A DNA stretch of 64,000 nt, taken from Candidatus Centipeda massiliensis (GTDB lineage Bacteria; Bacillota; Negativicutes; Selenomonadales; Selenomonadaceae). Below are positions 56,103 to 64,000 of this stretch, one piece after another. The position numbers were made by a program, and so were the translations under genes. Position 1 is the stretch's first letter. The number at the start of each line of letters is the position of its first letter. The stretch is taken from assembly GCF_900290285.1 (NCBI RefSeq), contig NZ_LT985756.1:88390-152389 (forward strand), read 5' to 3'. The notes beneath the pieces are model-generated. The model was given only the letters and a program-made list of their open reading frames with translations, was not told the origin of the DNA and ran no database searches.

Positions 56103-56522
56103 TTATTTCACGACATCTCCGTGCCAGTCCTTGATGCCGCCCATCTCGACGATGTTCGTGTAGCCCATGTCGGCGAGTTTCTGCGCCGCCTGCTGGCTGC
56201 GTGCACCGCTGCGGCAGTAGACGAAGATCTTCTGCGCCTTGTCGGGCAGCTCCTTCGGCGGTGTGGTGTTGATCGACTCATTCGGGATATTGATCGCGTG
56301 CGGGATGTGACCGCCCGCGAACTCTCCCGATGTCCGCACATCGACGATCAGATAGCCCTGCTCCGCCGCCATCATCTTTGCCGCCTCATCCGAGGTCACG
56401 CGCTGAAATGCTGCCATACTCTGCTCCTTTCCTCCGTTTGTCTCGGAAGACTGTGCACTGCCGCAGCCGCAGAGTCCCAATGTTAAAACGCTCAAACAAA
56501 GAAATATAAATAATTTACGCAT
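56103..56522 (-). CDS. Rhodanese-domain lipoprotein (copy 2)
   Basis: A 139-residue exported protein. The signal sequence ends at the lipobox LCGC (about residues 17-20), and a single rhodanese domain follows, with the active-site loop YCRSGARSQQAA (Cys near residue 103). Rhodaneses carry a persulfide on this cysteine for sulfur transfer. It is a close paralogue of the neighbouring gene (shared GYTNIVEMGGIKDWHG-type ending). Surface or periplasmic location follows from the lipobox. Confidence 0.9.
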   Translation of the reverse strand: MRKLFIFLCLSVLTLGLCGCGSAQSSETNGGKEQSMAAFQRVTSDEAAKMMAAEQGYLIVDVRTSGEFAGGHIPHAINIPNESINTTPPKELPDKAQKIFVYCRSGARSQQAAQKLADMGYTNIVEMGGIKDWHGDVVK

Positions 56523-56543
56523 AGATTCACCTCATCAAACAAA

Positions 56544-56948
56544 TTACTTCACAACCTCCCCATGCCAGTCCTGAATCCCGCCCATTTCCACGATGTTCTT
56601 ATAGCCCATGTGGGCAAGGCGGTTGGCGACGTTCATACTACGAACCCCCTTGACACAGTAGACGAAGATCATCTGGTTTCGGTCGAGCAGTTCTTGGGGA
56701 GGACTCTCCCCGATGCTGTCCATCGGTATGTTGATCGCGTTTGGGATATGCCCCTTGGCGAACTCCTCCGGGCTGCGCACGTCGAGAATCAAATAGTTCT
56801 GTTCGCGCTGCATGAGCACCTGCGCCTCATCGGCGGTAATGCGCCGATACTTCGCCTGATCCTTTCGTTCCTCCACGGTATCCCCCGCACAGCCGGCGAT
56901 GGTAAAGCCCATCACAATGAGCAGCAGCATCGCCAAGATCTTCCCCAT
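56544..56948 (-). CDS. Rhodanese-domain lipoprotein (copy 1)
   Basis: A 134-residue lipoprotein with lipobox IAGC at residues 17-20 and a rhodanese domain; the active-site loop is YCVKGVRSMNVA. The loop differs from copy 2 (charged Lys replaces Arg-Ser), hinting at different acceptors. It lies between a TauE/SafE exporter and the second rhodanese, with spacing of 21 to 39 bases, suggesting one sulfur-handling operon. Confidence 0.9.
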   Translation of the reverse strand: MGKILAMLLLIVMGFTIAGCAGDTVEERKDQAKYRRITADEAQVLMQREQNYLILDVRSPEEFAKGHIPNAINIPMDSIGESPPQELLDRNQMIFVYCVKGVRSMNVANRLAHMGYKNIVEMGGIQDWHGEVVK

Positions 56949-60410: not shown

Positions 60411-60646
60411 CAAGAAGGTGAGCCTTAGGTGTGCGTATGCCTTAGCAATGTCTAACCTACAGATCTTTTAGGGAATCCGAATTGATTCCGGTGAAAGCGA
60501 TGCACCTCGGTGAACGCGGCAGCCGGACTTAGGGTACCCACCTGCTTTACGCAGGTATAGACATATAAGTCATACGGCATTTCAGACCCCTCTCTTGTGG
60601 TCAGAGTGAAACTGCCCGCGCGGCGGCTTTGTTCTGACCTTTTTTG
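60411..60646 (+). ncRNA. Structured small RNA locus, 6S RNA-like
   Basis: About 235 bases without coding frame. Long-range pairs run along its length: ACAAGA (60410-60415) with TCTTGT (60593-60598), ATGCC (60437-60441) with GGCAT (60576-60580), and TGTCTA-ACCT (60449-60458) with AGGT-A-TAGACA (60553-60563), giving one long irregular hairpin with internal bubbles. A local hairpin CCTGC/GCAGG sits on the 3' strand, as in 6S RNA. It ends in a GGTCAGA/TCTGACC terminator with six Ts (60599-60646). A weak promoter (TTGCGG-17-TATCAT) precedes it. Identity as 6S RNA is inference; that it is a stable RNA is more secure. Confidence 0.55.
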
Positions 60647-60744: not shown

Positions 60745-63225
60745 ATGCCGGATCTGGATAAAACGAACGAAGAGATGAATACAGACGCGTCTGCTAAAAG
60801 GCGTGGTCGTCCCAAAAAACGCATACAGGAAGAGCCGGAAGATGGCGCGACCAAAAGGCGCGGTCGCCCAAAGAAGGGAGAGGCCGCCGCAGCCCATGCC
60901 ACGGTGCGGCGTGAGCGCCCCACGGAACTGGTCTTTGCGCTCGACATCGGCACGCGCAGTGTCATCGGCATCGTCGCCGAACAGCGTGACGGGCAACTCC
61001 ATATCCTTGCCACCGAGCGGCTGGAGCACAAGACGCGCGCCATGCTTGACGGGCAGATTCACGATGTGCCGCAGGTTGCCGCCATCATTCGCGAGGTCAA
61101 ACGCCACCTCACCGAGCGTACGGGAGCACTGAGCAGTGCCGCCGTGGCTGCCGCAGGACGCGCACTCTACACGATGACTGCCGAGGCGGAGCAGGATATC
61201 ACGGGCACGATCACACCGGCGCAGCAGCGCGACCTCGACTTTGCGGGCGTACAGGCGGCGCAGAAGAAGCTCGCCCACTCACATACGGTCGATGATCCGA
61301 CGCGTTACTACTGCGTCGGCTACAGCACGATCCGCTATATGCTCGACGGCAACGAGCTCAAGACGCTCGTCGGACAGCGCGGCAGACACGCACAGGCGAC
61401 GGTCATCGCCACATTTCTCCCGCGTCAGGTGGTCGACTCCATGCAGTCGGCACTGCGTGAGACACACCTTGAGATGCGTGCGCTCACCCTCGAACCAATC
61501 GCGGGGATCAACGTGCTCATTCCGCCGACGATGCGCCACCTGAACCTCGTCCTCGTGGACATCGGCGCGGGCACCTCCGACGTTGCCATTACGCGCGGCG
61601 GATCGGTCATTGCCTACGGTATGGTTCCGATGGCGGGCGATGAGATCACGGAGGCAATCTCCCGCGAGTATCTCCTCGACTTCAACATCGCCGAGGACAT
61701 CAAGCGCAAGGCTGCGGAGGGACAGGATGTCTCGTTCACGGATATTCTCGGCATGAAGCTTTCGCTCACAGCCGATCAGGTCATTGCCGCAATCAAGCCC
61801 GGGGTGGAAAATCTTGCAAACGCGATTGCAAAGCAGATCCTTGAGCTGAACGGCGAGCCGCCGCAGGCGGTCATGCTCGTCGGCGGCGGTGCGCTCACGC
61901 CCATGATGCCCGAGCTCGTAGCAGCGGCGCTGGGGATTCCCGAGGCGCGCGTCGCCGTACGGCAGCCCGACGAGGTGGACGGCGTTGCAGACCTGCCGGA
62001 GGAGCTGCACGCCCCCGATGCCGTCACGCCGCTTGGCATTCTAAAAATTGCCTCGATCAACACCCTGCACTTTCTCGCTGTCTGGATCAACGACATCGAG
62101 TACAGCCTCTTCAACTTCCGCGAACTGAACGTCTCCGACGCCCTGCTCGCTGCGGGCATCAGTCTGCGCAAGTACAATGGCCGCCCCGGCATGGGACTCA
62201 TGATTACCGTGAACGGCGAGCGCCGCAGTTTTCCGGGCACAATGGGCACGCTCGCACAGATCACCATTGACGGCAAGAGCGCGAGCCTCGACTCCCCCAT
62301 CCGCGACGACTGCCGCATCAATCTCGTCGCCGGTGAAAACGGCACGCAGCCCGAGGTTCGCCTCAGCGACATTATCGGTACAATCGACAGCTATCAAGTC
62401 TCTCTCAACGGAGAGGAACGGGTCGTAACGGCGAGCATCCTCGTCAACGACAGCCCCCCTGAGGGCGATCCCATTCTGCGTGACGGTGATGTGATCATCT
62501 CGCGGCGTGAGCGCACGCTTGGCGAGGTGCTGCGCGCCGCAAACCTCCCGCCCACGGGACGGCGCATTTCCTACACGCTGAACGGAGAAGCGCGCCGCTT
62601 CTCCACTCAGCCGAGGATCACGCTGAACGATGCGCCCGCTCCGCTCTCCACGATGCTCCATGAAGGCGATGTGATCGAGTACGAGGAGACCGCGATCCCA
62701 ACCGTCGAATCCGTCCTGAATCTCTCCGCTGCCGCCTCATTCGCAACGATTACCTACGAGGGCAGAGAGCACCAGATTCCCGCTGCGGGGTTCACCCTGA
62801 CGATCAACGGACGTGAGGCGTCCCCCGGTACAGTGGTCGAGGACGGCGCCGTGATCGCCTATCAAAAGGGCACGGGCAGTGCCAACGTCAGCGAAGCCCT
62901 GCTCGCCGTCGGCTTCACGCCGCCGCCCGCGACGAGCCGCGTCACCTTCACCATTCTCGTGAACGGCGTCAAGGCGGACTTTACCAGCCCCATCCGCACG
63001 GGCGATACCCTCGAAGTCGTATTTGTGCCGCTGGAGTCGTTGAACACAGCTGCCGAAAAATCCGAGGAGAATCGTCCCGCAGCAAGCGCCATTCTTTCCG
63101 GTATTGCAGCGCGTGCAGGGCTTGGACAGGACATTGCAAATCCCCTCGACCGATCGGAACGAATGGGGACGGGAAAGCCCGCATCGGGCGCAGTCACACT
63201 TGACTCGCTCATGCGTTACGACTGA
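60745..63225 (+). CDS. FtsA/PilM-like cell-division ATPase with AT-hooks and repeated C-terminal domains
   Basis: An 826-residue protein, twice the length of E. coli FtsA. Residues 1-55 are basic and hold two AT-hook cores, RRGRPKK at 19-25 and 38-44. An actin-like FtsA/PilM ATPase follows (FALDIGTRSVIG near 63, LVDIGAGTSDVAI near 272, VMLVGGGALTP near 378). From about 470 onward there are four or five repeats of a strand-rich unit with the pattern x-x-V-N-G-x-R, then an I-x-D-G-D-x-I turn, reminiscent of beta-grasp modules. Clostridia and Negativicutes have such long FtsA-like proteins; function unproven. GGGAG precedes the ATG. DNA binding by the N-terminus is inferred. Confidence 0.85.
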   Translation: MPDLDKTNEEMNTDASAKRRGRPKKRIQEEPEDGATKRRGRPKKGEAAAAHATVRRERPTELVFALDIGTRSVIGIVAEQRDGQLHILATERLEHKTRAMLDGQIHDVPQVAAIIREVKRHLTERTGALSSAAVAAAGRALYTMTAEAEQDITGTITPAQQRDLDFAGVQAAQKKLAHSHTVDDPTRYYCVGYSTIRYMLDGNELKTLVGQRGRHAQATVIATFLPRQVVDSMQSALRETHLEMRALTLEPIAGINVLIPPTMRHLNLVLVDIGAGTSDVAITRGGSVIAYGMVPMAGDEITEAISREYLLDFNIAEDIKRKAAEGQDVSFTDILGMKLSLTADQVIAAIKPGVENLANAIAKQILELNGEPPQAVMLVGGGALTPMMPELVAAALGIPEARVAVRQPDEVDGVADLPEELHAPDAVTPLGILKIASINTLHFLAVWINDIEYSLFNFRELNVSDALLAAGISLRKYNGRPGMGLMITVNGERRSFPGTMGTLAQITIDGKSASLDSPIRDDCRINLVAGENGTQPEVRLSDIIGTIDSYQVSLNGEERVVTASILVNDSPPEGDPILRDGDVIISRRERTLGEVLRAANLPPTGRRISYTLNGEARRFSTQPRITLNDAPAPLSTMLHEGDVIEYEETAIPTVESVLNLSAAASFATITYEGREHQIPAAGFTLTINGREASPGTVVEDGAVIAYQKGTGSANVSEALLAVGFTPPPATSRVTFTILVNGVKADFTSPIRTGDTLEVVFVPLESLNTAAEKSEENRPAASAILSGIAARAGLGQDIANPLDRSERMGTGKPASGAVTLDSLMRYD

Positions 63226-63239
63226 TTCCTTCATCACAC

Positions 63240-63287
63240 AAAGGGGGCTGCGCTCCGAAGTTTTAGCTTCGGAGCGCAGCCCCCTTT
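63240..63287. terminator. Bidirectional terminator between convergent genes
   Basis: Perfect 21-base arms with the core GGGGGCTGCGCTCCGAAG and its complement around TTTTAG, with A and T runs on both sides. It serves the FtsA-like gene and the convergent acyltransferase. Confidence 0.92.
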
Positions 63288-63288
63288 T

Positions 63289-64000
63289 TCATTCCTCCCG
63301 CAGCGATTTCCAGCGGTCGTGCAGCCAGAACCACTCCTCTGGATATTTGCGCACCCACGCCTCGATGCGCGTGTTGATCATCTGCGTCACACGCAGGACA
63401 TCCGCCGCACGATCATCCGTCTTTTCGACCATGATTCCCTTTTCGACGGTGAGAACATGGTGCCCGTCCGCCTCACGGTGAATAAAGACGGGAAAGATCG
63501 GTACCGCACAGCGGCGCGCAATCGCCGCTGCTCCCGTGAACGCATTTGTCGGTTGTCCGAAAAAGTCGATGATGACACCGTCGCGCAGACTCGGATCCTG
63601 ATCACTGATGAGTCCGATGATCCAGCCCGCATCAATCATGCGGAACATCTCGCGCACGCCCGTCTGATAGGTGATGTGCATACCGACAAGCGCGCGGTAC
63701 TCGTTGATGAAGCGATCCATGCCCGCTGCACTCTGCCGTTTTGCCACGCCGACGATGGGAAGCCCCGCGCACGCAAATGCGCCGCCCATGAGTTCCCAGT
63801 TGCCGCTGTGCGAGGTGGCAAAGATCGCCCCCTTGCCCGCAGCGACCGCCGCACGCACCTCGTTCATTGCGCCCGTGATCGTCACATAGTCCGCCATGCA
63901 ATCCTTCATGACGGGAAAGCGCAGCACCTCCATCAGCATGGGTCCAAAGCGCAGGCTGCTCGCGCGCGCAATGCGCTCCGCCTCCGCCGCAGGGACAGAG
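63289..64000 (-). CDS. LpxL/HtrB-type lipid A acyltransferase, partial (runs off the right edge)
   Basis: The reverse frame stays open to the window edge, so the N-terminus is missing; 236 codons are visible. The acyltransferase catalytic motif HSGNWELMG (H-x4-E type) is present, followed by VAKRQS, ISDQDPSLRDGVIIDFFG and a final EWFWLHDRWK, all typical of LpxL/LpxM enzymes that add secondary acyl chains to lipid A in the inner membrane. It supports a lipopolysaccharide-bearing diderm host. An apparent ATG at 63939 is internal. Confidence 0.92.
   Translation of the reverse strand, partial: SVPAAEAERIARASSLRFGPMLMEVLRFPVMKDCMADYVTITGAMNEVRAAVAAGKGAIFATSHSGNWELMGGAFACAGLPIVGVAKRQSAAGMDRFINEYRALVGMHITYQTGVREMFRMIDAGWIIGLISDQDPSLRDGVIIDFFGQPTNAFTGAAAIARRCAVPIFPVFIHREADGHHVLTVEKGIMVEKTDDRAADVLRVTQMINTRIEAWVRKYPEEWFWLHDRWKSLREE

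Follow-up and report, generated by a model that had tools for sequence, protein, structure and literature searches.

A family of FtsA paralogues with tandem beta-grasp modules that tracks flagella in Negativicutes and carries a basic N-terminal tail in Selenomonadaceae

Within the window, the stretch of 64,000 nucleotides of the Candidatus Centipeda massiliensis genome that we analysed, lies a gene for an 826-residue FtsA-like protein (60745..63225 including the stop codon, + strand) that, judging from profile scores and phylogeny, belongs to a separate clade of FtsA paralogues and is not an FtsA ortholog. The family is present in 141 of the 249 genomes of our Bacillota sample, Bacilli and Clostridia included; in Negativicutes, it tracks the flagellar export gene flhA, and in Bacillota at large, the association is one-directional. 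We are nearly certain that the window protein is the Selenomonadaceae version of this family, in which an ATP-binding FtsA-fold domain is followed by tandem beta-grasp modules. A literature search found no paper on the family and no described function. Tentatively, we infer an ATP-dependent actin-like scaffold of flagellated Bacillota that is tethered to DNA in Selenomonadaceae.

Domain layout and terminal tails

The open reading frame is intact and starts with an ATG preceded by GAGG. A basic tail that is predicted to be disordered (residues 1-60; 60745..60924, + strand; pLDDT below 50 at residues 3-55) precedes the FtsA-fold actin-like ATPase core (residues 61-440; 60925..62064, + strand), which was delineated from Pfam, a predicted model, structure comparison and conserved ATP motifs. 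These motifs are phosphate-1 (DIGTR, residues 67-71), phosphate-2 (DIGAGTSD, 272-279) and adenosine (GGG, 380-382), and their key residues are invariant across the paralogue family. The actin-like ATPase named in the original prediction is borne out by a Pfam FtsA match to the whole protein (47.7 bits) and by comparison of the core model with known structures, where Vibrio FtsA (7q6f) is the top-ranked fold (Z 40.0, 2.5 Å, 360 residues), followed by PilM (Z 32.8), MreB (Z about 25) and Hsp70 (Z 23).

C-terminal to the core, residues 442-763 form five strand-rich modules, where four or five repeats had originally been counted, and structure prediction and Pfam assign to them the beta-grasp (ThiS/ubiquitin-like) fold. 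All on the + strand, these are module 1 (residues 442-529; 62068..62331), module 2 (538-588; 62356..62508), module 3 (590-648; 62512..62688), module 4 (652-709; 62698..62871) and module 5 (713-763; 62881..63033), the last with the signature NG..A.F......GD; the C-terminal part of the protein passes the Pfam ThiS cut-off (27.0 bits against 22.5). In Foldseek searches, a separate model of the array (pLDDT 88, 86 sequences) best matched multi-ubiquitin proteins (E 1e-5), and single modules matched ThiS (3cwi) and TGS (3hvz) with TM scores of 0.65-0.69 of the target. The fold is thus shared with ThiS, MoaD, TGS and the multi-ubiquitin (Bub-type) proteins, and the tandem order with the latter; unlike these, the window protein lacks a C-terminal Gly-Gly (it ends in SLMRYD) and has its modules fused to an actin-like ATPase.

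The basic N-terminal tail contains, as originally noticed, two copies of the AT-hook motif KRRGRPKK, at residues 18-25 (60796..60819, + strand) and 37-44 (60853..60876, + strand), and Pfam AT_hook (PF02178) matches residues 1-62 in two stretches with 17.8 bits, above its cut-off of 17.4. The original prediction was to stand or fall with the retention of R-G-R-P in close relatives. No such loss was seen within the genus: 13 of the 14 proteins, the window's included, keep both hooks, and the remaining one (L011) keeps a single hook. In the 13 two-hook proteins, the R-G-R-P core is invariant in both motifs and its codons differ synonymously, and the adjoining Lys/Arg positions show only Lys/Arg swaps. 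Because R-G-R-P is unchanged while its codons vary, conservation of the hooks reflects selection and not chance; on this comparison of sequences, the AT-hooks in this genus are under purifying selection.

Across Selenomonadaceae, we counted 62 distinct N-terminal tails, nearly all of them net positive; their median length is 62.5 amino acids, compared to extensions of 6-7 amino acids outside this family. At least one GRP is present in 22 of them and at least two in 15. In many genera, the tails are, instead, Lys/Ala-rich, resemble histone H1 and contain no hooks, so that the conserved property is a polycationic tail; the Pectinatus-like members (L050 and L102) have almost no tail. The N-terminal tail is thus an invention of Selenomonadaceae that is maintained as a polycation, with AT-hooks being its form in the genus of the window and a few others. 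AT-hooks are established DNA binders, and DNA binding by the tail is therefore predicted, with moderate confidence on our part. Two RGRP cores with basic flanks in a disordered tail are also what characterizes AT-hook proteins of the HMGA type (PF02178). The differences are that here the tail is appended to an actin-like ATPase and that most genera of the family carry H1-like tails instead.

Alternatively, the basic tail might bind RNA, polyphosphate or an anionic membrane lipid, and so act as a membrane anchor at the end opposite to that of the FtsA helix. Such a role would be compatible with the general net positive charge, given that hooks are found in just 22 of the 62 distinct tails, and with the divergent neighbour that most relatives have, the fatty-acid kinase pair FakA/DegV. 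Within the genus, however, the R-G-R-P core itself is conserved, beyond mere charge, and the tails are Ala/Pro-rich, with no hydrophobic anchors; we consider this alternative unlikely.

The protein ends in a second disordered tail (residues 764-826; 63034..63222, + strand; pLDDT below 50), which is present in Selenomonadaceae and missing from the shorter members of the family elsewhere. Its last residues, VTLDSLMRYD (63193..63222, + strand), are conserved in the form [TS]I.[DS][FL][IM]R.D. This end motif of about nine residues (for example, TIADFIRKD or TIDSLMRYD), which follows hypervariable linkers, was found in 38 of 59 distinct Selenomonadaceae tails compared to 2 of 867 background C-termini, with the pattern picked post hoc. 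We regard it as a conserved, putative docking motif. By eye, TIADFIRKD resembles the FtsZ C-terminal peptide DIPEWMRKR (VIDIPEWMRKR in the genome's own FtsZ). Mimicry of this peptide was not supported by a profile built from 21 local FtsZ tails, under which the best motif tails fell within about the top 3-25% of the background and none exceeded the 99th percentile. Like the basic N-terminal tail, the end motif is restricted to Selenomonadaceae. The original prediction had covered neither the C-terminal tail with this motif nor the other members of the family.

Canonical FtsA and the division genes

Against the equivalog model for FtsA (TIGR01174), the window protein reaches 87.9 bits, below the cut-off of 175.85 that canonical FtsAs from 33 genomes of the class exceed, and none of the curated NCBIfam models claims the paralogue family. 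In a tree of the ATPase domains (28 versus 20 sequences), the family is separated from canonical FtsA with support of 99/96. In many other families of Negativicutes, a canonical FtsA with a length of about 400 amino acids, the gene of which adjoins ftsZ wherever both positions are listed, is accompanied by the long paralogue, encoded elsewhere in the genome. Canonical FtsAs of this class end in an amphipathic helix (hydrophobic moment mostly 0.5-0.86). In the C-terminal tails of the paralogue family, no amphipathic membrane helix of the FtsA type was found (moments of 0.13-0.58, net charge of at most +2), in agreement with the original prediction; with moments mostly too low, the C-terminal tail as an FtsA membrane helix was ruled out. 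Altogether, the family shares with FtsA (TIGR01174, PF14450) the actin fold of the FtsA type and the ATP motifs, but differs from it in lacking the membrane helix, in having five beta-grasp modules, in its location outside the dcw cluster, in its sub-cut-off score and own clade, and in co-occurring with true FtsA in other families.

The original prediction had further suggested that the protein links chromosome and division and had asked for an ordinary ftsA elsewhere in the genome. None exists: no open reading frame of the window's genome passes the FtsA cut-off, and the next two matches are of the MreB type. Likewise, in our survey of 250 genomes of the class, neither the Selenomonadaceae nor many other families had a canonical FtsA above the cut-off. 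The window's genome encodes two copies each of FtsZ and SepF. SepF, a known membrane anchor of FtsZ, was found in 249 of the 250 Negativicutes genomes, often in two copies, the exception being G170 of family f6.

Together, these observations raise the possibility that the paralogue replaces the lost canonical FtsA in the Selenomonadaceae divisome, with the AT-hooks coupling division to the nucleoid. This scenario fits the lack of canonical FtsA above the cut-off in any Selenomonadaceae genome, the window's included, the FtsA fold of the window protein, the second FtsZ of Selenomonadaceae and the restriction of the tails to the family that lost FtsA. It is weakened by the missing membrane helix, by the coexistence of the paralogue with canonical FtsA in other families, by genera g8, g10 and g22, which have neither FtsA nor the paralogue and yet keep FtsZ, by the near-ubiquity of SepF and by the distance of the gene from ftsZ. 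We therefore consider such a replacement improbable, and an origin of the family as a replacement of canonical FtsA is rejected given that both coexist. With regard to the suggested link between chromosome and division, the tail is, indeed, of a DNA-binding type, whereas the part played in division was not supported for a paralogue that is well separated in the tree, coexists with FtsA and is encoded far from ftsZ. A division role is unsupported because many relatives that retain FtsZ and SepF divide without the gene, and the lack of a membrane helix, the near-universal SepF, the coexistence with FtsA and this dispensability all weaken a divisome reading.

The second FtsZ of the window's genome (L039/L043; C2:411634-412593, - strand) is a paralogue that is 38% identical to the main FtsZ, has GGGFGTGAAP in place of GGGTGTGAAP and lacks a C-terminal peptide; nearly all Selenomonadaceae genomes have at least two FtsZ matches, compared to usually one elsewhere in the class. 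A link between the FtsA-like gene and the second FtsZ was rejected because the genera that lost the gene still hold two FtsZ.

Distribution of the family and of flagella

Among the 250 Negativicutes genomes, the family was found in 150 and FlhA in 147; both are present in 147 genomes, the family alone in 3, FlhA alone in none and neither in 100, counts that ignore phylogeny and do not represent independent events, so that their Fisher statistics are descriptive only. The three genomes with the family and no FlhA are G062 and G071 (each 91% complete) and G093 (99% complete). In the Bacillota sample, for which the same reservation applies, 134 genomes have both, 7 the family only, 72 FlhA only and 36 neither. 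Thus, FlhA is present in 134 of the 141 carriers, and likewise in all 34 carriers tested from Bacilli and other groups, whereas the family is missing from 72 of the 206 flagellated Bacillota and, for this reason, cannot be part of the flagellum.

Within Selenomonadaceae, genera g8, g10 and g22 have neither FlhA nor the paralogue. In a six-gene tree, g8 groups with g6 (support 100) and g10 with g4 and g14 (support 89), and in g6, g4 and g14 both flagella and the gene are present; the position of g22, away from these groups, is weakly supported. Because the genera without flagella do not form one clade, flagella and the gene were jointly lost at least twice, and probably three times. Families f3, f6, f13, f21, f24 and f30 also lack both. 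The Negativicutes genomes without flagella retain FtsZ, SepF (except for G170) and, mostly, MreB-type proteins, and genome sizes in g8, g10 and g22 are normal; the joint absence is thus explained neither by loss of division genes nor by general genome reduction. The occurrence of the family alongside flagella, its strongest correlate, suggests a job in motile cells that differs from the usual job of FtsA. We put the chances of a functional tie to flagellated life at about even.

The correlation might, instead, reflect a shared lifestyle, with the protein being a reactivase or chaperone of the Hsp70/actin superfamily that is equipped with an adaptor array and has no connection with either division or motility. 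In line with such a function are the weak matches to DDR, EutJ and DnaK-type folds and the lack of a link to flagellar operons. The clear advantage of FtsA over Hsp70 in the structure comparison and the joint losses, which occurred in distinct lineages with genomes of similar size, argue against it, and we give it little credence.

Genome neighbourhood and proposed role

Directly upstream of the FtsA-like gene lies a 6S RNA (60418-60592, + strand; RF00013, 47.7 bits against a gathering threshold of 46.4) and, beyond it, a divergent DAK2-domain gene. In most Negativicutes, the divergent gene beside the FtsA-like gene is FakA-like (DAK2), often accompanied by DegV (L045, L060-L079); in the window's genus, a different, DhaL-type DAK2 gene occupies this position. 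Downstream, a long, strong GC-rich hairpin (63240-63289) flanked on both sides by T/A runs, likely a bidirectional terminator, lies between the gene and its convergent neighbour, which encodes a lipid A acyltransferase. Farther away, at 56103-56948 (- strand), the window encodes a pair of small lipoproteins that are paralogous, adjacent to one another and rhodanese-like in sequence. In Bacilli, the corresponding neighbours are aroA/ccpA versus ytxJ-ytxG-murC. None of the neighbours of the window's gene (6S RNA, DAK2, lipid A acyltransferase) explains its function.

That the protein is a PilM-like cytoplasmic ring component of a pilus or secretion machine, as might be surmised from PilM being the second-nearest fold, from 55.3 bits against TIGR01175 and from a Bacilli homologue in PLSDB (hit H1, NZ_CP015439.1) annotated 'pilus assembly protein PilM', is very unlikely given that this score is far below the curated cut-off of 133 bits, that FtsA scores higher in both sequence and structure and that the inspected conserved neighbour clusters, in which annotation is partial, contain no recurrent pilus genes. 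PilM also differs in that the C-terminal modules are absent from it.

The explanation that we favor, if tentatively, is that the protein functions as a cytoplasmic, ATP-dependent actin-like scaffold in flagellated cells rather than as an FtsZ tether. The ATP-binding core and the FtsA fold lead us to infer nucleotide-dependent assembly, and the string of beta-grasp modules would most plausibly be a protein-docking or adaptor arm. The scaffold would probably tie the placement or timing of an envelope structure (flagella or an assembly associated with them) to the cell cycle; the client in motile cells might be flagellar placement, number or cell-cycle timing, or else an envelope process that flagellated cells need. 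The basic tail of the Selenomonadaceae members, whether of the AT-hook or the H1-like kind, would attach them to AT-rich nucleoid DNA, and a partner would bind to the C-terminal motif on its long linker; the protein could thereby connect the chromosome with the envelope. A more specific version, in which an ATP-dependent polymer anchored to the nucleoid by its AT-hooks uses the ubiquitin-like arm and the tail to position flagella, and possibly also the division site, with respect to the chromosome, strikes us as a long shot. Several observations fit the scaffold explanation poorly. No flagellar operon neighbourhood was found in the Negativicutes or Clostridia samples, and in the compared neighbourhoods the only flagellar genes are those for MotA/MotB-like stators, close to some of the copies in Bacilli. 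A sigma-28 promoter upstream of the gene was rejected, with no signal above that in shuffled sequences. Furthermore, the almost complete genome G093 has the gene without flhA, and more than a third of flagellated Bacillota lack the family.

These findings delineate a bacterial actin family that more than half of the Bacillota genomes in our sample encode and whose members have been labelled FtsA or PilM on the basis of similarity. The near-perfect match with flagella in Negativicutes makes its role directly testable. To our knowledge, no other actin-like protein has an AT-hook tail built in, which would make the version found in Selenomonadaceae, a group of bacteria that divide without canonical FtsA, the first of its kind.
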